Of a stretch of 31,013 bases of DNA, positions 3,471-26,121 are shown one piece after another. This DNA is from a virus. The position numbers were made by a program, and so were the translations under genes. Under the pieces are notes generated by a model, which did no database searches, was not told where the DNA came from, and was given only the letters and a program-made list of their open reading frames with translations. The stretch is from the IMG/VR virus record IMGVR_UViG_3300029319_000083, positions 19,804-50,816 of that record. One strand, given 5' to 3'. The number at the start of each line of letters is the position of its first letter. The stretch's first letter is position 1.

Positions 3471-6400
3471 CTATCGGCCCGTCCGTGCTCTAATTTCTTC
3501 TTGACTGAGGAATTCGCCTTGCGCGTTGATATACAGAGGTACGCCCCGAATAAAATCGACAGGGTCAGAGTCTCCAAAGATTTTTTTCCGGACTCTATAG
3601 ACGTACGTCCCGGGCTGTGTTGCGCTCGGACCAAATACGTCATCTGCGTATTTGAGATCGTACTTTTCTCGGAAGTTACTAAATGCGGGGTTCACACCTA
3701 TCACTGCTATGCTCGACGCTCCCGTGTTAGCAAAATCTTTTTTGAAGTCCTCTACGTCATCGAGACCACTCGTCACCTGTACGAGATTACCAAAGTAGCG
3801 TAACGCTCTCATCTGTTGTATCTGTGAGCGTGTAGGTGCGAAGTATCTCTGCCCCTGTTGCATACTCGTTTTGATATCGAAGATTTGATTGTGACGTACG
3901 ATAGCATCTTTAGTCTCTTGCATTAAGCCTTCGACCACGGAGATTCGTACCTCCTTCGAGGAAAGGAAGTCCGCGTTTACGGCTTTAAGAGCGGCGATGT
4001 AGTCTCGCTCAGAGATACGACCGGCTTCGTCCATCGTCTTTGCAAAGTTGTAGGCGAACTTGACGAGAGCGGATGCTAGCTGGGCATCGTTCTTTAGGAA
4101 ATCTTGTTGTAAGAATGATGCGGTGGCAGCTTCGATACGATCTCTCTGCGCTTGACTTTCGTAGTCATCAGGGTTGTAGAGTCCGAGAGCTTCGAGAGCC
4201 TTGCCCCCTGCCTGAAACGCTTGCTTCGCGACACTATCATCAATCAGGAACAAGTTGGCAAACTTGACACGTATGTCCGTAGTAAACTGAGAACCTCGTG
4301 GCTGTTGTTCGAGGAGATTGAGAACTAGGTTACCCTGTTTCAAAAAGTCGGCATCTGCTCGGCGACGTTCATCAAGTTTCTTGTCTGTGATGCCACTGCC
4401 CGTGAGACGTGCGAACATACGGTCTGTTTCAGCGAGAGTCATAGTCGTACGTCCCGCTTGGGTTCCGAATCCGGGAGGTAGGTCTGCGCTCATAGCTACA
4501 GAGAGAACATCTAGCTGATCGTTACGATCTGTGATACCGAAACGTGCAAGAACTTGTCCGATAGACGCAGCATCCCTCTCTCGTAGCGGAGCGTCTTTAC
4601 GCGTAGAGAAGAAGCCCATATCCGAAATGACGTTTGCCGCTTCGAAGAGATAGAACGGATTGTCGTAGTTCGATGCCTCGATCATGCGATAGTTTAGGTC
4701 ACTATTGTTGAAGAAGGCATGTGTGCTCACACCTCGTTTTGCAGCGAGACTCTTTACTGCCGGAGTAACTTGGAGCACCGTCGTAGGTGTGAGAGCGTAC
4801 TGATCTTCCGAGAGTTCCATACCTGATGTATCGACTTGCGGAGTAGAATTTGTACGCAAACCACTTCGCGTTTCATCCGGCTTAGGCTGCTTAAATACAT
4901 CGTGTACGAGAGTTTGTACGAAGGGAAGGGAGTATAGCTCACCGAACGCGTACGCGTAGTCGCGAGGACCGGGAGCTTCCCGCTTCTCTTCACCCCGATA
5001 CGAGGCTTGCATCTGCGAGGCGTAGTCGAGCTTGAGAGCACTCGTCACTTGCGCTTCAAATTCCTGCTTTTCCTCCGGTGTCATTGCCGCATAGAAGTCG
5101 AGACCGTTATCTCCCGGCGTTCTCAGCTGTCCTTGCGCGTTGGTAACGCCGTAGCTAATACTTGCAATACGTGTGTTTAACTGCTGGAGAAACCCTGTCG
5201 GGTCTTGTTCGAGGGTCTTTCCGGTTTCGATGTTGATGGTCTTATCAGAGCTAGTAAACGAGTACACATCCTTCGCCACTTTTTCGACGAGATCACGTGC
5301 GTTGATGAGAGTTAAGAAATCAGCCTGTGCTTTAGCAGGAATTGACGGTGCTACTTGGAATCCGGGAGTACCGGCATCCGCATCTTCTAACACTCCCGGA
5401 TCACCTACGAAGGCGGCAATATTTTCGAGAATATTGGTGGCCGTTTGTCTCTTTGCTCCGACATCGTTTTGATCAAATTTCGAAAGGTTCTGTACCCCGT
5501 CGTCGAGTATTTTGATGATCTCGTCAGCAGTTTCTTCTCCGGCGAGTAGGCTATCTTCAGTGCCGTACTTTGACGCGATACCATCGAGAAACATAACGTC
5601 GAGAATTGCGCCCCGGGGACCGGAGTACGATACACGACCATTATCATCCGTAGTCTTTGTGAGATGTTTTTCGACGATTTTGTTGCGGAGTGCGTTCACA
5701 GTTTCGAGGGCGGGTGCGATTATTTCAGACTTTAATTCTCCGTCTTTGCCCGTGAACAAAGCTGCGAGGTCGTCCCGTTCGTCGTTAGATATACGCTCGT
5801 ACGGCTTCTCAGGAATAGGCATACGAATTGTGCTAACGAGGAGCGCTTCAAATTTAGAACCCGGCCGAGCTACCGGTAAGAGGTTTCGGGCTTCGGCTAT
5901 TTTCTTTTGAGGGTCTTCCGGGAGCGCATTGAACATACTCAATTCGTTCGCAGTCATCTTGTCTTGCGTGGCGAACGCTTGCATCATCGTGATGTACGAC
6001 GGGGGAAGGGAGTTCACCGTGCTTGCAAGTTGAAACTCTTCAGGATCAATCTTCATTCCCACTTGAAAGCCGATATCTAAGAAGTCGTCAGGCGTGAGTT
6101 GTCTATTCAGCGAGGCGGTGTAGTCTTGTATTGCCGGAAAGACGCCCTTGCTAGTGTACTTATTCCAGACACCCATCACCTCACCCGCAAGATTTTGATC
6201 ACCCATAACCGTATCGAAAACAGTCTTCTGGTTTGCCGGGAGGGGTTGATCTGTACGGTGTGCGTTTAAGAAGATTGCGTTTTGTTGCTCGGGCTGAAAC
6301 CCCAAGAACATCGGTAAGTTTGATGCGTCTTGCATAAAGGCGTTCGCGAGACCGTAATTATCTTTGTTCGTCAAGAACGAGAAGAGGTCACCCTGCGCCG

Positions 6401-6533
6401 ACTTCTTAGCTTCTGCTGCCGCTTCTGCTTCGAGCTTCTTCTGCTTACGGATAGCTAGACGACTCTGAACAGCCGTGTCGAGGATACCCTGTATTGCACC
6501 GAGAGTGATAGGACTTTCGAGAATATTAGCCAT
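3471..6533 (-). CDS. Large virion protein of 1020 residues, presumed internal/ejection protein
   Basis: A 1020-residue, mostly polar protein without a signal peptide, clear membrane segment or catalytic motif that I can recognise. The N-terminus has a short hydrophobic start followed by a Lys/Glu/Ala-rich helical stretch (residues about 28-48). Its ATG overlaps the stop of the preceding 180-residue gene as TAATG, and GGAGAAAG lies upstream as a ribosome site, so the start is well supported. It sits between smaller virion genes and the even larger gene at the left edge. Two consecutive giant genes after the tail genes resemble the gp15/gp16 position of T7-like podoviruses, which form the ejected core. 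The role is inference from position and size; I did not recognise sequence similarity, and no lytic transglycosylase signature is visible. Confidence 0.82.
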   Translation of the reverse strand: MANILESPITLGAIQGILDTAVQSRLAIRKQKKLEAEAAAEAKKSAQGDLFSFLTNKDNYGLANAFMQDASNLPMFLGFQPEQQNAIFLNAHRTDQPLPANQKTVFDTVMGDQNLAGEVMGVWNKYTSKGVFPAIQDYTASLNRQLTPDDFLDIGFQVGMKIDPEEFQLASTVNSLPPSYITMMQAFATQDKMTANELSMFNALPEDPQKKIAEARNLLPVARPGSKFEALLVSTIRMPIPEKPYERISNDERDDLAALFTGKDGELKSEIIAPALETVNALRNKIVEKHLTKTTDDNGRVSYSGPRGAILDVMFLDGIASKYGTEDSLLAGEETADEIIKILDDGVQNLSKFDQNDVGAKRQTATNILENIAAFVGDPGVLEDADAGTPGFQVAPSIPAKAQADFLTLINARDLVEKVAKDVYSFTSSDKTINIETGKTLEQDPTGFLQQLNTRIASISYGVTNAQGQLRTPGDNGLDFYAAMTPEEKQEFEAQVTSALKLDYASQMQASYRGEEKREAPGPRDYAYAFGELYSLPFVQTLVHDVFKQPKPDETRSGLRTNSTPQVDTSGMELSEDQYALTPTTVLQVTPAVKSLAAKRGVSTHAFFNNSDLNYRMIEASNYDNPFYLFEAANVISDMGFFSTRKDAPLRERDAASIGQVLARFGITDRNDQLDVLSVAMSADLPPGFGTQAGRTTMTLAETDRMFARLTGSGITDKKLDERRRADADFLKQGNLVLNLLEQQPRGSQFTTDIRVKFANLFLIDDSVAKQAFQAGGKALEALGLYNPDDYESQAQRDRIEAATASFLQQDFLKNDAQLASALVKFAYNFAKTMDEAGRISERDYIAALKAVNADFLSSKEVRISVVEGLMQETKDAIVRHNQIFDIKTSMQQGQRYFAPTRSQIQQMRALRYFGNLVQVTSGLDDVEDFKKDFANTGASSIAVIGVNPAFSNFREKYDLKYADDVFGPSATQPGTYVYRVRKKIFGDSDPVDFIRGVPLYINAQGEFLSQEEIRARTGR

Positions 6534-12596: not shown

Positions 12597-13277
12597 TCAG
12601 GTTGCCCTTACATAGTAATTTTCATTTACAAGTATCTTACGCATGTTTTTCATGCCTTCATCAAACTTGCTTTTTGATATTGATGCCATCTCCATGTTGT
12701 CACGGAACATGTAGCAGTAATACATAGCACCATCTACAATGACATATTTATATGGTTCTGGTATCATAGGCACATCATCGTGCAGAGACAAATTAACGGG
12801 GTGTAGGAAATACTCATACTCGATCCTGTACGCTTTGTCAGGCATGGGTATGATGCCGAAGTAGCCGTCTTGTGATCTAAATACAAACTCGGGTACGCCA
12901 CCCTTTGTAGTATCTGTTTCATCCTCTTGATCTATGTAGCGATCTACGTATTCCACGTAGGTAATCTTACGTAACTTACGTGCCCTGCCTACGTCGAGGC
13001 TTGTGTCTCGCTTCACTCGAAACGTATCAAAGTCTACATACTTAGCCTCGTCCGCAAACGAGTAACGAGTCTCTCCGGCAACCAGTGTGATTTCATCTGA
13101 GTTGTGATTGTAGGGCCAGTACAGATAGTACTGATTGATGTCACGGATAGAAGAGTTCACTGCATCTTTGATAGTCCCGTAAAAACCTTTTGCAGTAGAG
13201 AAATTAGTAGATGTGAGTTCTGTCTCGTTGAGACGACGAGCAACGCTGTTGACGAGTTCGAGGTAATTGTATGTCAT
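12597..13277 (-). CDS. Tail tubular protein A-like head-to-tail adaptor
   Basis: A 226-residue protein of the phage adaptor type: an N-terminal helical part (YLELVNSVARRLNETEL ... TIKDAVNSSIRDINQ), a middle beta part (ITLVAGETRYSF), and a helical C-terminal half with a Tyr-rich segment (YKYVIVDGAMYYCYMF). This layout and length fit T7 gp11 / P22 gp4-like adaptors that sit under the portal ring. Its ATG overlaps the stop of the preceding 113-residue gene as TAATG, and GGGAG lies upstream as a ribosome site. The B-like nozzle gene starts one base after its stop. The pair strongly suggests a short non-contractile tail. Confidence 0.8.
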   Translation of the reverse strand: MTYNYLELVNSVARRLNETELTSTNFSTAKGFYGTIKDAVNSSIRDINQYYLYWPYNHNSDEITLVAGETRYSFADEAKYVDFDTFRVKRDTSLDVGRARKLRKITYVEYVDRYIDQEDETDTTKGGVPEFVFRSQDGYFGIIPMPDKAYRIEYEYFLHPVNLSLHDDVPMIPEPYKYVIVDGAMYYCYMFRDNMEMASISKSKFDEGMKNMRKILVNENYYVRAT

Positions 13278-13618
13278 TAGTTACGCTCCCTTACTCGCAG
13301 ATTGATTACTCGTTTCGTAACGATAGCAGCAGTGGTCTTAGCTGACGTGCTTGTTGTAATCTCGCAAATTAGTTTGTTGTCCACATTTGCTGTGCCGCCT
13401 GACAGCACAATGGTAGCCGTCGTACTGGTGTTCGCAATACGATTTACAGTCATGCCGTTGATCGTATCCGAAGCAGATAGGTTGCTTGATTCTGTGCCGT
13501 CAGTTTGTATAAAGCGCCACGCAACAGACGCAATAGTCAGCGTATCTAAGTACCGGGACCAGTCTACAGTGTAGTCTAGCTGTTCATCCGGGTCTTTGTC
13601 GGGCCATCGTAATGACAT
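13277..13618 (-). CDS. Phage fibre-tail adaptor-like protein
   Basis: A 113-residue protein beginning MSLRWPDKDPDEQLDYTVDW. The KDPDE-LDY-VDWS motif, the middle 'VLSGGTA' and the C-terminal 'INLRVRER' match the small family commonly annotated as fibre-tail adaptor in phages, in which the D-Y-x-x-D-W box is near the N-terminus. It is encoded between the 409-residue repeat protein and the tail tube proteins, the expected place for a part that joins fibres to the tail. AAAGGT precedes the ATG, and the stop overlaps the next ATG as TAATG. Identity is by remembered motif; the exact binding partner is not known. Confidence 0.75.
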   Translation of the reverse strand: MSLRWPDKDPDEQLDYTVDWSRYLDTLTIASVAWRFIQTDGTESSNLSASDTINGMTVNRIANTSTTATIVLSGGTANVDNKLICEITTSTSAKTTAAIVTKRVINLRVRERN

Positions 13619-13619
13619 T

Positions 13620-14849
13620 TTATGCTACCTTTGCTAATCTTTGTGCGTCTTGAGGCACAGATACGATTCGGGGTTTTTCTGCAGATACGAGGGCAGTTCG
13701 CTGTTTATCTTGGGCAATATAAATAACATGCTTACGTTCGTAGAGCGTTGCATCAAAGAAGAAGGATCGGAATCCGTCTGCAGTGACGGCTGCTTGGCCC
13801 GATACGGATGCGGTCCCTAATAAGCGACGGGTTGCTAGTCCTGTAATCGATGCAGTGCCAACTACAGAGACCGTTACAACCACTGTCCGAACACCAGTGG
13901 CTGTGGCTGTCGTTGCGCTCGATACGGATGCGTCTACATTGTGAATTCGTACTGCCGCGCTGGATTGAGAGGCAGTGCCGCTGACGCTGCTTGCGCCGTT
14001 CCGAACGCGGATTGCACTTCCAGATACGGTCGCCTGACCGGAAACAGAAGAACTGGCACTAAAGACAACTGTCGAGGATGCGGAAACAGCCGCCGTACCC
14101 GAGATAGATGCCGAGACATCCTTGACCCTGACTGCCGCCCCGGTAACCGTGCCCGTGCCTGATACGGAGCTTGCGCCCTCCTGTACCCTGATTGCCGTTG
14201 CGGAAACTGTACCCGCACCTGACACAGAGGATTCTGCGACGGCTCGTAGGGCTGCAGAAGACGACGCGGTTGCCTGACCAGATACAGAGCCAGTAACAGG
14301 AGCGAGGAGTGTAGCCGTCGCCGATACAGTCGCTGTCCCGGATACAGACGCTGCGGCAGTTTGGATGCGAATACCGCTGGCCGATACTGTAGCGTCACCG
14401 GATACGGACGATACACCCGCCGCTCTAAGCAGCGCACTTCCTGATGCCGTTGCTGCACCAGAGATGGCGGAGTCGCCCGGACGAAGGGCTGTTCCTGTCG
14501 AACTTGACGAACCACCTGCAGAGATAGAGCTACTTGCAACAAGACGAGCGGTGGCTACTGACGTTTGCGTACCCGCAGCAGATACAGATGCAGCGCCTGT
14601 GGCTGTCAGTGTGGCACTTGCACTAGCCGTGCTTGAGCCGCTTGAATCTACTCCTGCTAACTGGAACGATGTTGTATCTACGTCTGCTATAGTAGCAGCA
14701 CCAGATACAGAAGCTGTTACATCCTCTAGTAAGCCTATCGATGCAGATACTGCTACACTAGCGGCACCAGAAACGGAGGCAGTCACCTCAAAGAGCGAAG
14801 TACCCGGAGACGAAAAAGGTGCTTGCGAAAATGAGGAGGATGCAAACAT
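13620..14849 (-). CDS. 20-residue-repeat virion protein (Ser/Ala/Val-rich), probable fibre or tail-decoration protein
   Basis: A 409-residue low-complexity protein made of SVSGxAxV units. By hand I count 13 consecutive units of exactly 20 residues (residues 88-347), preceded by three less regular units (from residue 25) and ended by one partial unit. A typical unit is SVSGTATVSATATLLAPVTG: alternating small and hydrophobic residues, as in a beta-solenoid or elongated beta fibre. The last about 45 residues are different, with the short spaced motifs HVIYIAQDK, RTALVSAEK and RIVSVPQDAQ, a shorter beta repeat I associate with small attachment domains in phage structural proteins. The gene lies between a probable fibre accessory gene and the fibre-tail adaptor gene. 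A shaft or capsid/tail-surface role is inferred. The upstream ribosome site is weak (GGAC). Confidence 0.82.
   Translation of the reverse strand: MFASSSFSQAPFSSPGTSLFEVTASVSGAASVAVSASIGLLEDVTASVSGAATIADVDTTSFQLAGVDSSGSSTASASATLTATGAASVSAAGTQTSVATARLVASSSISAGGSSSSTGTALRPGDSAISGAATASGSALLRAAGVSSVSGDATVSASGIRIQTAAASVSGTATVSATATLLAPVTGSVSGQATASSSAALRAVAESSVSGAGTVSATAIRVQEGASSVSGTGTVTGAAVRVKDVSASISGTAAVSASSTVVFSASSSVSGQATVSGSAIRVRNGASSVSGTASQSSAAVRIHNVDASVSSATTATATGVRTVVVTVSVVGTASITGLATRRLLGTASVSGQAAVTADGFRSFFFDATLYERKHVIYIAQDKQRTALVSAEKPRIVSVPQDAQRLAKVA
13809..14588 (-). repeat. Thirteen tandem 60-base coding repeats
   Basis: These encode the 13 exact 20-residue units of the 409-residue protein. 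Bases are diverged between units while the SVSG start and the unit length are kept, so the array is old or under selection for protein shape. Less regular units lie on the 5' side. Confidence 0.85.
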
Positions 14850-21657: not shown

Positions 21658-22047
21658 TTACGCCTCTGAAATTGTAATTGCACCCGATGCAAAGCGGAGT
21701 GTGTCCCCGTCTGCAATAGTTTTAGAAGCTGAAAGAGCGCCGTAGTAGAGAAGATTTCCCGACGATGAAGCGTCCCATATCCCGAAGTGTGTCACCGTAC
21801 CAAAAGCACCACCACTAGCTGTAAACTCTTCTACAGAGTTGCTTGCGGCTGAACCACTACTAGCAGAAGCGAAGGTGATGACTTGACGAGAGTACCCGTT
21901 TCCGGAGACCTCCGCGCCAGAACCTGCATCTGTGGGGTTTGCTGTGTGCAAAGCGAGGTACACATTACTGGGTGCAGAAGTAGAGGCCGTACCTAGAAAG
22001 TGGTCAAGAACCTTCAACTCCAAGTAATTAGATTTTGCATCTGACAT
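21658..22047 (-). CDS. Phage tail protein of the small 'YLALHTANPTDAGSGAEVSG' family
   Basis: A 129-residue beta-rich protein with NYLELKVLDHFLG, VYLALHTANPTDAGSGAEVS, GYSRQVITF, THFGIWDASSSGNLLYYGAL and a C-terminal 'GDTLRFASGAITI'. This motif set is typical of a widespread small phage tail/fibre-associated protein. It is encoded immediately before the 754-residue fibre, and its ribosome site (AAGGGAG) is strong. Likely role: a distal tail or fibre-base component. Identity by remembered pattern, no search done. Confidence 0.8.
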   Translation of the reverse strand: MSDAKSNYLELKVLDHFLGTASTSAPSNVYLALHTANPTDAGSGAEVSGNGYSRQVITFASASSGSAASNSVEEFTASGGAFGTVTHFGIWDASSSGNLLYYGALSASKTIADGDTLRFASGAITISEA

Positions 22048-22058
22048 AATTTACTCCC

Positions 22059-22400
22059 TTATGTCTTGTTTGGATCGTACCTCTCCTCAACAGAGACGGT
22101 TACGAGTAGAGTGTTAGCGGTTGTTGCCGTAGCATAGATAATATCCCCCGCGTCCAGAAATAGTGGAGAGTTCATGTCCACCAGTGCTACAGAAGAATTA
22201 GACGATATGGCGCGTGCCTCGAATATATTAAAGGTACTAGCCCCGTCATTCCTCTGAATCAGTATGTTTCGATCAGTCGAATCTGTGTTAGATAAAATAA
22301 TAGCCTGCACCACAGACGAATGATTGGCAGGCACCGTGTACACTGTTGTCTGATTCGTCGTAGTCAAGTCCGCTGACTTGGTGATTAGTTTGGTAGCCAC
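22059..22400 (-). CDS. Small beta-rich virion protein, unknown role
   Basis: A 113-residue protein without signal or membrane segment, beta-rich in appearance (TVYTVPANHSSVVQAIILSN, LFLDAGDIIYATATTANTLL). The start is GTG at 22400, overlapping the TAG of the preceding gene (TAGTG); AAGGG seven bases upstream makes this start convincing. The pattern of 'vytvPanhssvv...lsN...d' is familiar from phage structural proteins associated with tails or capsid surfaces. It precedes the tail protein and fibre genes. Function unknown; structural role inferred. Confidence 0.75.
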   Translation of the reverse strand: MATKLITKSADLTTTNQTTVYTVPANHSSVVQAIILSNTDSTDRNILIQRNDGASTFNIFEARAISSNSSVALVDMNSPLFLDAGDIIYATATTANTLLVTVSVEERYDPNKT

Positions 22401-22660
22401 TAGCGAACCCTTCTATATGCGCGCGTCTTCTTCGCTATCTTCTTAGGCTGCTTCGCCACCTGTTTACCCGCCTTCGTCGCCTTACGCTTTGCGCGAGTCG
22501 TAGCAGCGTACTCTTTCGCGGAGAGCGCCTTAATAGCTTTTTCCGGTAGATATCTCTCCCCGGTAGCTTTCGGACCTTGTGTGGACGGCTTGCCACTGCG
22601 GGTGCGCCACTTCTGCTTAGTCCAAGCGGTCAAAGAGCGTTGGCTCTTCTTCTTCGGCAT
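22400..22660 (-). CDS. Small very basic conserved phage protein
   Basis: An 86-residue protein with many Lys/Arg, including SLTAWTKQKWRTRSGKPST, GERYLPEKAIKALSAKEYAA and VAKQPKKIAKKTRAYRRVR. I recognise the 'WTKQKWRTKSGKPS...GERYLPEKAIKALSxxEYAAT' pattern as a small conserved protein of marine phages, function unknown. It starts inside the upstream 83-residue gene (44-base overlap), with GGAG seven bases before ATG, so both genes look real. Its charge suggests nucleic-acid contact, which is inference. Confidence 0.8.
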   Translation of the reverse strand: MPKKKSQRSLTAWTKQKWRTRSGKPSTQGPKATGERYLPEKAIKALSAKEYAATTRAKRKATKAGKQVAKQPKKIAKKTRAYRRVR

Positions 22661-22868
22661 CCTCTATCTCCATCGTAAGCGTAGCCAGCGCGGCCAGTTT
22701 ATCTTGGGCTTCCCCCCATTTTTCAAGCGCCGTGTCCATCTCCTCCAACAGACCCGGATGCTCACCAATACCCGTCGGCTTATCCAGATAAACCCGGAAT
22801 ACAAACTCTGCATCTGCCATCTCCGCTTGATATTTATGCCGCAGGGCTTCTATCGCTAATTTGTGCAT
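22617..22868 (-). CDS. Small acidic conserved phage protein, unknown function
   Basis: An 83-residue helical protein (LAIEALRHKYQAEMADAEF, DKPTGIGEHPGLLEEMDTAL) with an acidic C-terminus (EIEDAEEEEPTLFDRLD). The 'GIGEHPxxLEExD' motif is one I associate with a small conserved protein of cyanophages and other marine phages. A strong ribosome site (AGGAG) precedes the ATG, and a promoter-like sequence lies about 20-50 bases upstream. It is therefore the first gene after a likely transcription start and overlaps the next gene. Function unknown. Confidence 0.8.
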   Translation of the reverse strand: MHKLAIEALRHKYQAEMADAEFVFRVYLDKPTGIGEHPGLLEEMDTALEKWGEAQDKLAALATLTMEIEDAEEEEPTLFDRLD

Positions 22869-22880
22869 GGTATCTCCTGA

Positions 22881-22917
22881 CTACATATATTGTAGCATAA
22901 ATACATAAAATTTACAA
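22881..22917 (-). promoter_or_regulatory. Sigma70-like promoter with palindrome over the -10
   Basis: On the minus strand TTGTAA (22912-22917) is followed by a 17-base spacer and TACAAT (22889-22894), with TGC before the -10 as an extended -10. A palindrome CTACA-5-TGTAG (22881-22895) covers the -10 and the start-site region, which could be an operator. The site is in the only sizeable gap between the 143-residue gene and the 83-residue gene, and it is AT-rich. It would drive the small proteins and then the fibre genes. No other member is verified. Confidence 0.65.
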
Positions 22918-22922
22918 GAAAA

Positions 22923-23354
22923 TTATAGTCTGCCCTGTGCGTGTAAGACTAGCAAGATAACCGCAGCAAAAATGCTGGCAATCACGATCAGAAGAAATGA
23001 TATTATGGCTACTTCAATGTGATGCTTGTGCTTTCGTACCCGCTCTTCTTCTGCCTCTCTCCGAGCAACCCGTGCCTTTGCTTGAAAGCGTTGCCAGTCA
23101 CTCCACAGTCCGGGGCGACCAGCATAGATCATTATCTGTTTTAGTTGTTCTTCTTGTTCGCGTATCTGTTCGAGAGCCATAAACTCTTCGAGATCAGAGC
23201 CGCCACCTTTTTTCTGTGCCTTTCTTTGTAGCTGTTCTTTTGCTCCTACAAAGTTAGCAATAGCCTTACCAGCACTGGCAATCTCCTTGCCGTTCTGGAC
23301 AGCACTTTTGATCACAGCAAAGGCGGCGTTTGCGGCAGCAAGTTCGGCAAGCAT
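22923..23354 (-). CDS. Conserved phage protein with C-terminal membrane segment
   Basis: A 143-residue protein: an Ala-rich N-terminal part (AELAAANAAFAVIKSAVQNG), a long charged helical middle with DLEEFMALEQIREQEEQLK and QIMIYAGRPGLWSDWQRF, then basic residues and one C-terminal membrane segment (about 114-136). I associate this motif set with a small conserved protein of marine phages; its function is unknown to me. The ATG overlaps the stop of the 62-residue gene (TAATG). It lies downstream of the lysis genes, so a role at the inner membrane is possible, but it lacks the N-terminal anchor and charge pattern of an i-spanin. Unknown, membrane-anchored by its C-terminus. Confidence 0.8.
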   Translation of the reverse strand: MLAELAAANAAFAVIKSAVQNGKEIASAGKAIANFVGAKEQLQRKAQKKGGGSDLEEFMALEQIREQEEQLKQIMIYAGRPGLWSDWQRFQAKARVARREAEEERVRKHKHHIEVAIISFLLIVIASIFAAVILLVLHAQGRL

Positions 23355-23542
23355 TAATAGACTCGTACTTTATCATTTACTAGTTTCGGTAGGCAGTACG
23401 CCGTGACCGTGCGACCTTGTTCGTGTAGCTTTTGTGCGTACCACTTGCACTCTCGTAGGTCGCGAAAATACAAATCGTTACTGACCAGACGCTTATCATC
23501 CCCCAGCCCAAGAAAGACAAACAGGAGAAAGGCGTGCTGCAT
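23354..23542 (-). CDS. Small conserved phage protein with hydrophobic N-terminus
   Basis: A 62-residue protein. The first 14 residues are hydrophobic (MQHAFLLFVFLGLG), followed by LYFRDLRECKWYAQKLHEQG and VTAYCLPKLV. The 'VYFRDLxxCxxxAxxL...VxAxCxPxxV' pattern resembles a small protein known from marine phages; two Cys could form a disulphide if exported. The hydrophobic start is short and may be a signal or a weak anchor. It is coupled to both neighbours by stop/start overlaps. Function unknown. Confidence 0.75.
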   Translation of the reverse strand: MQHAFLLFVFLGLGDDKRLVSNDLYFRDLRECKWYAQKLHEQGRTVTAYCLPKLVNDKVRVY

Positions 23543-23751
23543 TAGTCTCTGTAGCCGCCCCCTGCTTTTTTGTAAGCTGCCGCAAGCATTTGGGCTTTAC
23601 GCGCCGACCACTGACCCGGGCGTCCGCCCTTGCCACCGGCCTTGATGCGATTGAAGAGACGCTTTCTCATTGCAGGCTTGGTGTAGTTGCCAGCCTCGTT
23701 GACGCGGCTCTTGGTCTTTTTCTTAGGCTTGGATGGTTTACGAGGGGCCAT
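23542..23751 (-). CDS. Small basic conserved phage protein
   Basis: A 69-residue, strongly basic protein. SRVNEAGNYTKPAMRKRLFN, RIKAGGKGGRPGQWSARKAQ and LAAAYKKAGGGYRD form a pattern I recognise as a widely distributed small phage protein of unknown function. Its start overlaps the TGA of the lysozyme gene and is preceded by AAGGGAG. Basic charge suggests DNA or RNA contact, an inference. It lies between lysozyme and the small hydrophobic protein gene. Confidence 0.82.
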   Translation of the reverse strand: MAPRKPSKPKKKTKSRVNEAGNYTKPAMRKRLFNRIKAGGKGGRPGQWSARKAQMLAAAYKKAGGGYRD

Positions 23752-24236
23752 CAGAACTCTCCCTTAACCATAGCGTCCGAGAGCTTTATAGCCCGCGAAC
23801 CCACTTGCTTCGCCCATCTGGAATCGAGCATCTCTCGCCCAGCGGCGTCGAACTTACGCTCGTGGATTGCAGCCCACATGCGCTTAAATTTACAGAGGCG
23901 TGGCACGCCCATATTGAAGGCCATGTCCATCAGGATCAACTGACGTACGGCATCCAAGTCGTTAACAACGGGCTGCACACGGCACAACTCGTCTTCTACG
24001 ATCTTGATGTCGTTCATGGCAAGATATCGTGCATCCGCTTCTGTGATACCGTGTTCGTACACGATAGCCATCGACGGAATGTCCATGTAATCGAGTTCTT
24101 CTTTACTGATCCCCCGGTCTTTTAAATTGCGCCCGATACCAATAGTGTCGATGCCGAGAGTGTCCTGATATACAGTGAGCACTAAGCCCTCATGTGCAAT
24201 CAGCTTATCTAAAAAGTGAGATGTGTTATACTTCAT
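23751..24236 (-). CDS. T4-type lysozyme (endolysin, GH24)
   Basis: A 161-residue enzyme close in length to T4 lysozyme (164). The catalytic triad spacing is kept: Glu16 in HEGL, Asp25 in YQDT and Thr31 in IDTIGIG, matching E11-D20-T26 of T4 lysozyme. The C-terminal part (MAFNMGVPRLCKFKRMW and REMLDSRWAKQVGSRA) also fits the family. It would cut peptidoglycan to release progeny. No signal peptide or N-terminal membrane arrest segment is seen, so release to the periplasm would need a holin pore; the holin gene is directly upstream. ATGA overlap with the preceding gene and GAGG as ribosome site support the start. Confidence 0.93.
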   Translation of the reverse strand: MKYNTSHFLDKLIAHEGLVLTVYQDTLGIDTIGIGRNLKDRGISKEELDYMDIPSMAIVYEHGITEADARYLAMNDIKIVEDELCRVQPVVNDLDAVRQLILMDMAFNMGVPRLCKFKRMWAAIHERKFDAAGREMLDSRWAKQVGSRAIKLSDAMVKGEF

Positions 24237-24442
24237 TCTTTTGCCTCATGTCCCATCCATACCGCAAACGCACCTGTCATGGCTCCCGTCACCACACTTA
24301 CAAGTGCTGCCTGTTGACTTGTCGGCTCTGGTATTGCCATGAACCACTCCACTACGCGCCACGCTGAGATCGACATCCCCAACATCATCAAACGGGGGAG
24401 TATCCTCCACCTCAGTATGCGCTCCATAGTAACTTCGGCCAT
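24233..24442 (-). CDS. Small two-span membrane protein, probable second holin or holin partner
   Basis: A 69-residue protein with hydrophobic segments at about residues 14-35 (LPRLMMLGMSISAWRVVEWF) and 45-63 (AALVSVVTGAMTGAFAVWMG). It is encoded between the 3TM holin and the lysozyme, with stop/start overlap to the latter. The 'RWRILPRLMMxxMS...RVVEWFM' pattern is a small membrane protein found in marine phages, known to me as a conserved holin-region protein of unknown role. It could be a pinholin, antiholin or auxiliary; the sequence does not decide. Confidence 0.82.
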   Translation of the reverse strand: MAEVTMERILRWRILPRLMMLGMSISAWRVVEWFMAIPEPTSQQAALVSVVTGAMTGAFAVWMGHEAKE

Positions 24443-24444
24443 GC

Positions 24445-24828
24445 TTACTTCTTCCCAAAGAATTTAGTAGCGCTACGAACGCCAAATGAGGCAGCAACGA
24501 TAATCCCCAGAGAATATTGATACCATTGCGGCATAGCTTCGAGTTGTGCGAATCCATTAGCTACCACGCCCTCCATGCCCGGGATAAATGCAAGGATCAA
24601 CGGCACTGAAAACAAAATAACCAGCCACTCGTCTTTCCACGATGACTGACTTCCACGCGCCATTTCTAAGTCCCATTCGAGTTCCCCCGTAGCTTTCTTT
24701 TCCATAATGGTCGCTTCGGCTTTTGCTCGTGCGACTTTGGCTCCCGTCTCGGCCTTTGTTTTTTCGACCTTACCCTCTAGCCATGTACCAGCTAAGTTGG
24801 CTATCGGGCCGATCAGCGCAGTTAACAT
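24445..24828 (-). CDS. Holin, GTA-type 3TM family
   Basis: A 127-residue protein with an N-terminal amphipathic/hydrophobic helix (residues about 2-16), a charged helix (18-60), a conserved WKDEW box, and two strong membrane segments (about 68-84 and 104-119) ending ASFGVRSATKFF. This is the layout of the 3TM holin family first described in gene transfer agents (PF11351). It would form the pore that lets the lysozyme reach the cell wall. I use the ATG at 24828, with AGAGG upstream; a GTG at 24834 would be too close to the ribosome site. The first bases overlap the end of the upstream basic gene. Confidence 0.88.
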   Translation of the reverse strand: MLTALIGPIANLAGTWLEGKVEKTKAETGAKVARAKAEATIMEKKATGELEWDLEMARGSQSSWKDEWLVILFSVPLILAFIPGMEGVVANGFAQLEAMPQWYQYSLGIIVAASFGVRSATKFFGKK

Positions 24829-25106
24829 TTCCACCTCTTCCGCGCCTGTCTAAGGCGGCTATTAGGATTCTTTGCAGCCTTCGGAAACTTCTTCATCTGT
24901 CCAGCAGAACGCGCACAAAACGACTTGCGCCGCTTGGCATCTTTGCTTCCGGGCTTGACTTTGCCGGTGACTGCAGTCTTTAGTTTAGAACCGGGGTTTT
25001 TGCGACGATACGCAGCCACCCCGGCTTTAGTCATACCCGCCCCTGCTTTCGTAGGCCGAAAGTTCTTCTTGTTACGGGCTGGCATTTTGTCGGCTTTGCG
25101 TGCCAT
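24822..25106 (-). CDS. Small very basic conserved phage protein (94 residues)
   Basis: A 94-residue Lys/Arg-rich protein with NKKNFRPTKAGAGMTKAGVA, AYRRKNPGSKLKTAVTGK and VKPGSKDAKRRKSFCARSAG and a C-terminal 'PNSRLRQARKRWKC'. I recognise this as a conserved small phage protein of unknown function; the pattern is very regular and I have seen close versions in marine phages. The ATG at 25106 overlaps the TGA of the upstream gene (TGATG), with AGGA seven bases upstream; a GTG one codon earlier is less likely. Basic charge suggests nucleic-acid contact. Two Cys near the end may be functional. Confidence 0.85.
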   Translation of the reverse strand: MARKADKMPARNKKNFRPTKAGAGMTKAGVAAYRRKNPGSKLKTAVTGKVKPGSKDAKRRKSFCARSAGQMKKFPKAAKNPNSRLRQARKRWKC

Positions 25107-25255
25107 CACTTCTTCCTTGCAGTTTGCGCCGCACGCCTAAAGTTGCCAGAGGTTGGTGCGCCTTTGCTCCCCGGCTTACGCATCTTTTCACCGCTACCGG
25201 CTTTGATGCGACGTTTCTTGGCTGCAATGTTGGCGTATAATCCGCGACGTGCCAT
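25106..25255 (-). CDS. Small basic conserved phage protein (49 residues)
   Basis: Start at the ATG at 25255, giving MARRGLYANIAAKKRRIKAG, then SGEKMRKPGSKGAPTSGNF. This matches a short conserved phage protein with 'RRGLYANI..K..RI..GSGEKMRKPGxKGAPT' that I have met in many phages; function unknown. A longer reading from 25294 would run back into the Lys-rich repeat gene and is not needed. Its stop overlaps the next start. A weak purine-rich sequence precedes the ATG. Confidence 0.82.
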   Translation of the reverse strand: MARRGLYANIAAKKRRIKAGSGEKMRKPGSKGAPTSGNFRRAAQTARKK

Positions 25256-25256
25256 T

Positions 25257-25457
25257 TTATTTCTTCTTCTTTTTGGCCGTGTTCTTGCCGCCATACATCA
25301 TCTTCTTCTTCTTCGCACTTCCACCACGGGCCATGCCTTTGGCTTTCATCTTACCGCCATACATCATCTTCTTCTTTGCACTGCCGCCACGAGCCATTCC
25401 TTTGGCTTTCATTTTGCCGCCGCGCTTCATGCCTTTACTCTTCATCATCTTCTTCAT
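25257..25457 (-). CDS. Lys/Met/Gly-rich repeat protein (66 residues)
   Basis: Start at the ATG at 25457 (MKKMMKSKGMKRGGKMKAKG), seven bases after GGAG; a longer reading from 25502 lacks support. The protein is two copies of a 21-22 residue unit, KMKAKGMARGGSAKKKMMYG, followed by a Lys-rich tail. It is one of the most basic proteins possible without Arg-rich stretches, and overlaps the end of the 228-residue gene by 23 bases. Similar Lys/Gly-rich small proteins are common in marine phages. DNA binding or condensation is possible but only inferred from charge. Confidence 0.78.
   Translation of the reverse strand: MKKMMKSKGMKRGGKMKAKGMARGGSAKKKMMYGGKMKAKGMARGGSAKKKKMMYGGKNTAKKKKK
25288..25416 (-). 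repeat. Two-copy tandem repeat (66 and 63 bases) inside the Lys-rich gene
   Basis: The units begin with ccgccatacatcatcttctt on the plus strand at 25288 and 25354 and are near identical apart from one extra codon and some synonymous changes. They encode KMKAKGMARGGSAKKK-MMYGG twice. In-frame duplication by recombination or slippage is the likely origin. Confidence 0.85.
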
Positions 25458-26121
25458 AATCGCTCTCCGCGTAGAGGTTATCGAATACCCGCGCCGTATC
25501 ATTGACGTAGTTCGGGTCTTGCTTTGAATGATGGACCCACTGACTAGGAGCGAAGTCCGGTGGGCCGTCGCCCGTTACGAACCATGCAGGGTTGGTTACC
25601 CTGACCCGGTTGTTCGGAAGAGCAACGATGTTGCCCGTCCACTGTCCAGCATCTAACAGTTCGAGTACGTGACTCTGTTTGTGTTGTGCCGGATCGTCTG
25701 CTACTTCTGTGTCCGTGTAGTCTACAGTGAAGTAATACTTAGCTGGGTAAAACTCACCGTCGATCTTTGCAAGCCACGGACAGGGTGTGCCTCTGTTGAG
25801 TACGAAGACCGAGTGATGATGTGACTGACAGTCCCACGGCTGGGCTAGATACGTCGGCATCGGCTCGGGCCACTCATCGAAGGGAGTGTCGCCTACGAGG
25901 GCTGTGAGCGGCATTCGCGCCCACATAGCGCCCCCGTGGACATTTTCTTCTTCGTCGCATCCCGTAAATAAGACTTGAAAGGATAGGGTACGCATCGGCA
26001 GGGTTGTGACCCCGATCACCATTGCATGTAAGAATTCACCCTGATATCTATCGTGATTAGTGGTGTATTCTCTCCGTACCCACGCTTTAAAATACGGAAT
26101 GTTACTGGTTATGTAGTTCAT
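25435..26121 (-). CDS. Conserved phage protein of unknown function (228 residues)
   Basis: The start is the ATG at 26121 (MNYITSNIPYFKAWVRREYT), seven bases after AGGAG. A longer reading from a TTG at 26211 would run through the promoter and is rejected. The protein has 'RYQGEFLHAMVIGVTTLPMR', 'FTGCDEEENVHGGAMWARMP' and a Trp-rich part with WDCQSHHHSVFVL, then an acidic end (ESDYEEDDEE). I associate this motif set with a conserved marine phage protein, but its function is not known to me; the His/Cys residues could bind metal. It is the first gene after a strong promoter and overlaps the Lys-rich gene. Confidence 0.8.
   Translation of the reverse strand: MNYITSNIPYFKAWVRREYTTNHDRYQGEFLHAMVIGVTTLPMRTLSFQVLFTGCDEEENVHGGAMWARMPLTALVGDTPFDEWPEPMPTYLAQPWDCQSHHHSVFVLNRGTPCPWLAKIDGEFYPAKYYFTVDYTDTEVADDPAQHKQSHVLELLDAGQWTGNIVALPNNRVRVTNPAWFVTGDGPPDFAPSQWVHHSKQDPNYVNDTARVFDNLYAESDYEEDDEE

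Follow-up and report, generated by a model that had tools for sequence, protein, structure and literature searches.

A protein of 20-residue repeats as the likely rope of a GP4-type bead fibre in an HMO-2011-like phage

What is the role of a phage protein that consists mostly of 20-residue repeats and is encoded directly next to a fibre-tail adaptor? This question is raised by a gene in a stretch of 31,013 nucleotides (the window) of a 50.8 kb IMG/VR virus record. The phage is marine and HMO-2011-like, and its gp77-like adaptor is closest to those of HMO-2011-type phages that infect Roseobacter and SAR116 bacteria. An initial annotation had correctly placed the repeat gene beside the adaptor gene and had assigned its product to a fibre, proposing that the repeats themselves form a beta-solenoid or a trimeric fibre. 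The relevant features are as follows.

12597..13277, minus strand: SU10-type tail adaptor (PF24175, E 7.5e-23)
13277..13618, minus strand: gp77-like fibre-tail adaptor, 113 aa (PF23148, GP4 fibre-tail adaptor gp77, E 5.8e-15)
13620..14849, minus strand: repeat protein ORF, 409 aa (ATG start, open frame, reads 14849..13620)
14778..14849, minus strand: N-terminal segment of the repeat protein, residues 1-24, motif F....F (here FSQAPF); proposed distal end
14589..14777, minus strand: degenerate repeat units, residues 25-87
13749..14588, minus strand: 14 in-register 20-residue units, residues 88-367; proposed bead-binding body
13623..13748, minus strand: C-terminal R.V.V repeats of about 10 residues, residues 368-409; proposed adaptor-binding module
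21658..22047, minus strand: gp80-like protein, 129 aa, putative bead (PF23140, fiber I protein gp80, E 1.2e-43)

The repeat is strict. At lags of 20, 40 and 60 residues the self-identity of the protein is 0.33, 0.32 and 0.39, whereas composition-matched shuffles give 0.14 (z 10.2, 9.4 and 12.5), and no other lag exceeds a z of 4.2. The period, the register and the SVSG-like unit starts described in the initial annotation thus stand, whereas its count of thirteen units becomes 14 (starts SVSA, SISA, AISG, SVSG, SISG, SVSS and SVVG in residues 88-367). Upstream of residue 88 degenerate SVSG-like starts are present at 25, 47 and 70, with spacings of 22, 23 and 18. In 22 relatives of the protein, F7 and F12 of the N-terminal segment are nearly invariant. 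The C-terminus, already recognized as a different short repeat, reads KHVIYIAQD-KQRTALVSAE-KPRIVSVPQD-AQRLAKVA, an RxVxV repeat of about 10 residues that is unlike the 20-residue unit and in which R372, R394, R404, K407 and A409 are invariant.

Sequence databases offer no name for this protein. Profile searches of Pfam, PHROGs and NCBIfam gave no family match (E up to 0.1), in agreement with the earlier remark that the repeat belongs to no described family, and tblastn against isolated phages found nothing. A PDB sequence search with the window protein, BcepMigl gp57 and JC1 gp54, in a library without chains of unknown residues, yielded no convincing chain. The single-chain AlphaFold2 model, built with 22 relatives, has two strands per 20 residues but a pLDDT of 43.5 and a pTM of 0.32. 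Such low confidence is as expected for a chain that would need partners, but it would fit any hard target equally well. The idea that the repeats fold on their own into a solenoid or trimeric fibre is thus left unsupported.

The neighbouring genes suggest what the partners may be. Both partner proteins of fibre I of the Ralstonia podophage GP4 have a counterpart in the window: gp77 next to the repeat gene, with the SU10-type adaptor gene further downstream, and gp80, 7 kb upstream (phmmer match to 8jou_a, E 3.4e-11). According to the abstract of the GP4 study, fibre I reportedly consists of an elongated rope protein that connects five gp80 dimers, and five fibres are said to be placed on a 15-fold adaptor. 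PDB entry 8jou (Fiber I and fiber-tail-adaptor of phage GP4) holds 10 gp80 and 3 gp77 chains; the GP4 capsid paper contains nothing on fibres. Judged from sequence comparisons, we consider it likely that the repeat protein is the rope of such a bead fibre, threading gp80-type beads and clipped to the gp77 ring. Elsewhere in the window, at 22400-25502 on the minus strand, genes for a number of small and very basic proteins alternate with a lysozyme-like gene; one of these basic proteins (25502..25257, minus strand) has internal MKAKGMARGGSAKKK repeats.

The surroundings of 78 gp80-like genes in IMG/VR were scanned. Each of the 22 loci whose downstream sequence extends for 8.5 kb or more contains an ORF with a lag-20 signal (in L214, for example, at 5536-6426); a further locus, L193, has no repeat protein within its 7.4 kb downstream. 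Many of the loci come from another group of phages, where gp80 is immediately followed by the gene for a 293-aa protein whose ends are unrelated. As a background, periodicity was determined for 839 distinct ORFs with a minimum length of 150 aa. A z above 6 was reached by 80 of them, of which 58 had their peak at lag 20; 57 of these 58 belonged to the rope-like repeat family. Among isolates, lag 20 ranks first in the gp80 neighbour of MEP401, ct2t2046, BcepIL02, BcepMigl, Itty13, Faith1, PBC5, phiM5 and PVJ1, phages labelled Methylophilales, Manatee Spring, Burkholderia, Mycobacterium, Sinorhizobium and Psychrobacillus. The signal is weak in Itty13, phiM5 and PVJ1, as it is in the repeat body of CRP-603; in JC1 lag 22 comes before lag 20, and the CRP-4 neighbour has no periodicity by the lag measure. 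Several of these period-20 neighbours also show hydrophobic periodicity.

In BcepIL02, JC1, Itty13 and PBC5, too, the gene for the repeat protein comes after gp80 and before gp77. The rope-like proteins of the GP4-related phages BcepIL02, JC1 and Itty13 share period 20 (22 and 20 in JC1) and a C-terminal R.V.V motif with the window protein, which differs from the Burkholderia phage ropes in having approximately 17 units, the sequences of which are very unlike theirs. A 40-column profile built from window-type units reached 40-107 bits in MEP401, ct2t2046, CRP-4 and locus L202, with a maximum of 10-23 bits in 60 shuffles. The Burkholderia, Mycobacterium and Itty13 proteins did not rise above shuffles, so that it is period and position that argue for their kinship. 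In Psychrobacillus phage PVJ1, which has a Gram-positive host and tape-measure and baseplate genes, the gene following the gp80-like one is annotated as a putative portal (L170:5396-6421), and the N-terminus of its product is weakly 20-residue periodic.

Regarding HMO-type phages, 80 IMG/VR loci contain a gp77 relative, and the 78 with upstream sequence were scored. In all of them a repeat-type ORF lies directly upstream, its end being -1 to +26 nt away from the gp77-like start. These relatives are modular: an FS..PF motif at the N-terminus is followed by a repeat body and, at the C-terminus, by R.V.V repeats of about 10 residues. The body can be missing altogether, as in natural forms of 107 aa (L026-28), 163 aa (L054-56), 147 aa (L057-61) and 145 aa (L072-73), and the largest bodies occur in proteins of 609-1155 aa. 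Lengths to a conserved SF.F marker are mostly within 3 residues of a multiple of 20 (e.g. 39, 199, 281, 319; further values are 361, 378, 398 and 541), so that units are gained and lost whole. Other clades use other unit sequences, mostly with lag 20 and some with 21 or 22. A free-standing 37-aa protein, CRP-345 gp54 (L005:8521-8634), consists only of R.V.V-type repeats and is encoded between the rope-like gene and gp77; it resembles a C-terminal module that has become a separate gene. In an 842-aa relative (L021:2471-4999) an additional domain, a few hundred residues long and possibly a distal payload, is inserted near the N-terminus.

A dependence of the repeat on PF23140 proteins alone was considered and rejected, since HMO-type phages negative for PF23140 also have it. 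The near-complete genomes among these carry a 145-aa phrog_644 protein; in the genome of L021 both bead families are present. When a bead was defined as a PF23140 or phrog_644 protein, nine of 16 near-complete HMO-type genomes had bead, gp77 and repeat body (the window, G003, G019, G026, G035, G037, CRP-345, CRP-603 and CRP-207) and seven had neither bead nor repeat body (HMO-2011, CRP-1, CRP-738, CRP-9, HTVC033P, HTVC115P and G020), repeat absence being scored in structural regions only and the count not being a clean statistic because the genomes are related. G020 has gp77 together with the repeatless 163-aa protein. An exception is formed by L027 and L028, which possess a phrog_644-like protein but the repeatless 107-aa form. 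The AlphaFold model of the phrog_644 protein (pLDDT 82.5) retrieved 8jou_a first among 350,542 PDB chains, yet at E 0.24 and TM 0.42-0.44, and hhalign of the two bead family profiles was not significant (probability 2.6%). The role of phrog_644 as a second bead family is for these reasons only a suggestion.

The C-terminus appears to follow the other partner. A motif of R-x-hydrophobic-x-V occurring twice, 3-7 residues apart, written as a regular expression after the sequences had been seen, is present in all six ropes outside the HMO group that have a gp77 (JC1, BcepIL02, BcepMigl, Itty13, Faith1 and PBC5) and in none of five for which no gp77 was found (MEP401, CRP-4, phiM5, ct2t2046 and PVJ1), against a background rate of 36 in 946. 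Absence of gp77 was tested by profile in the first four of these five and deduced from the listed genes in PVJ1; the JC1 gp77 gene was assigned by its 90% identity to BcepIL02 gp57. Among the 78 HMO-type loci, 56 match the pattern and the remainder are variants with longer spacing. Thus the repeat goes with the bead and the C-terminal module with the adaptor, which lends substance to the earlier view of an attachment part at this end.

BcepIL02 gp55 (gp80), gp56 (rope) and gp57 (gp77) are each annotated by the depositors as virion-associated phage protein. In JC1 virions, mass spectrometry detected the gp80 and gp77 homologues but not the rope homologue gp54 (PMC9144972), perhaps because rope-like proteins yield few tryptic peptides.

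A forward test was offered by phage LSH1, whose virion module gp34-36 comprises a gp80-like fibril protein, an Ig-like protein and a large protein, part of which was modelled poorly; gp35 resembles 8JOU_g (PMC13243795). The large protein, gp34, has N-terminal lyase-like domains, and the relevant part was modelled as a poor beta helix for reasons that were left unexplained (PMC13243795). The rope model predicts a 20-residue period in this part, and the prediction was tested in the LSH1 relative Slicko01, a myophage unrelated to the window phage. Its 1843-aa protein (L258, OQ508956 109100-103569) has lag 20 as top period over residues 1000-1700 approximately, the expected half, with z 8.3-9.1 in the strongest 200-aa windows, and no lag-20 peak in the N-terminal half. 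Two genes further on lies a gp80-like gene with a weak match to PF23140 (E 8.5e-4, below cut-off), and a search of Slicko01 with PF23148 gave no gp77. The part of LSH1 gp34 that could not be interpreted is probably accounted for by such a 20-residue repeat near the C-terminus. The large protein of LSH1 and Slicko01 differs from the window rope in its N-terminal lyase-like domains and the lack of an R.V.V C-terminus. Bead-chain fibres also occur in the Anabaena myophage A-1(L), which has five of them on a 15-fold neck ring (PMC10966104), but its gp81 trimer beads join head to tail and no thread protein has been described (PMC10966104).

These observations bear on other ways to read the protein. 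It might be a self-folding homotrimeric beta fibre of the triple beta-spiral or beta-prism type, with a host-binding N-terminal end. The strict short repeat with predicted alternating strands, the fibre locus with its C-terminal attachment module and the three gp77 chains per fibre in 8jou would all suit such a structure, which we nevertheless find unlikely, since it explains neither why period 20 accompanies gp80 genes in unrelated phages nor why repeatless forms exist in nature. A monomeric beta-solenoid, acting as an adhesin or spacer that projects from the neck, is quite improbable: two predicted strands per regular unit and the poor beta helix of LSH1 gp34 are in its favour, but a solenoid does not predict the coupling to gp80, and the model scores remained low in spite of 22 relatives. 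Comparative evidence ties the repeat to a separate gp80-type bead protein, by which its place in a fibre is supported while its being the fibre itself is not; the solenoid or trimer reading is probably wrong. That the protein is a disordered low-complexity linker with repeats that are replication products of little function, as its S/A/V/T/G-rich composition and the wide length variation of relatives could suggest, is very hard to reconcile with an exact 20-residue register kept across unrelated sequences and phage types, with the hydrophobic periodicity of several relatives and with the co-occurrence of repeat and bead genes.

If the protein is indeed a rope threading gp80-type beads, it would be extended and would donate short strands to the beads, or receive them, along its length. 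Each 20-residue unit would offer two short strands to a bead, a row of gp80-like dimers (gene 22047..21658) would be strung along one rope, and the C-terminal R.V.V repeats would fasten it to the neck by way of the gp77-like adaptor ring, with the N-terminus distal. We infer the physical binding, the strand donation, the stoichiometry and the N-to-C polarity. By eye, the JC1 and BcepIL02 homologues have some 10-11 units, which, set against the 10 gp80 chains of 8jou, suggests one unit per gp80 protomer; as a guess by the same analogy, the window rope with its approximately 17 units would hold about eight dimers. A more tentative extension, which we hold to be possible but rather less than an even bet as a whole, is that the rope acts as a ruler within a mobile module. 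Each unit would hold one gp80-type protomer and fold only when bound, and the number of units (about 1 to 26 among relatives, changing by whole units) would determine how many beads there are and how long the fibre is. The module of rope, bead and adaptor would move among podo-, sipho- and myophages, its bead families and its N-terminal payloads being exchangeable.

As far as sequences can tell, the repeat family is spread across tailed phages, and we found it described nowhere; family databases miss rope-like proteins because the sequences are diverged and low in complexity. The 20-residue unit provides a simple rule for annotation, which is to look beside gp80, and it may account for a part of a virion protein that the LSH1 authors could not interpret. 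The natural ladder of rope lengths offers a test of whether the repeat protein sets the length of the fibre.
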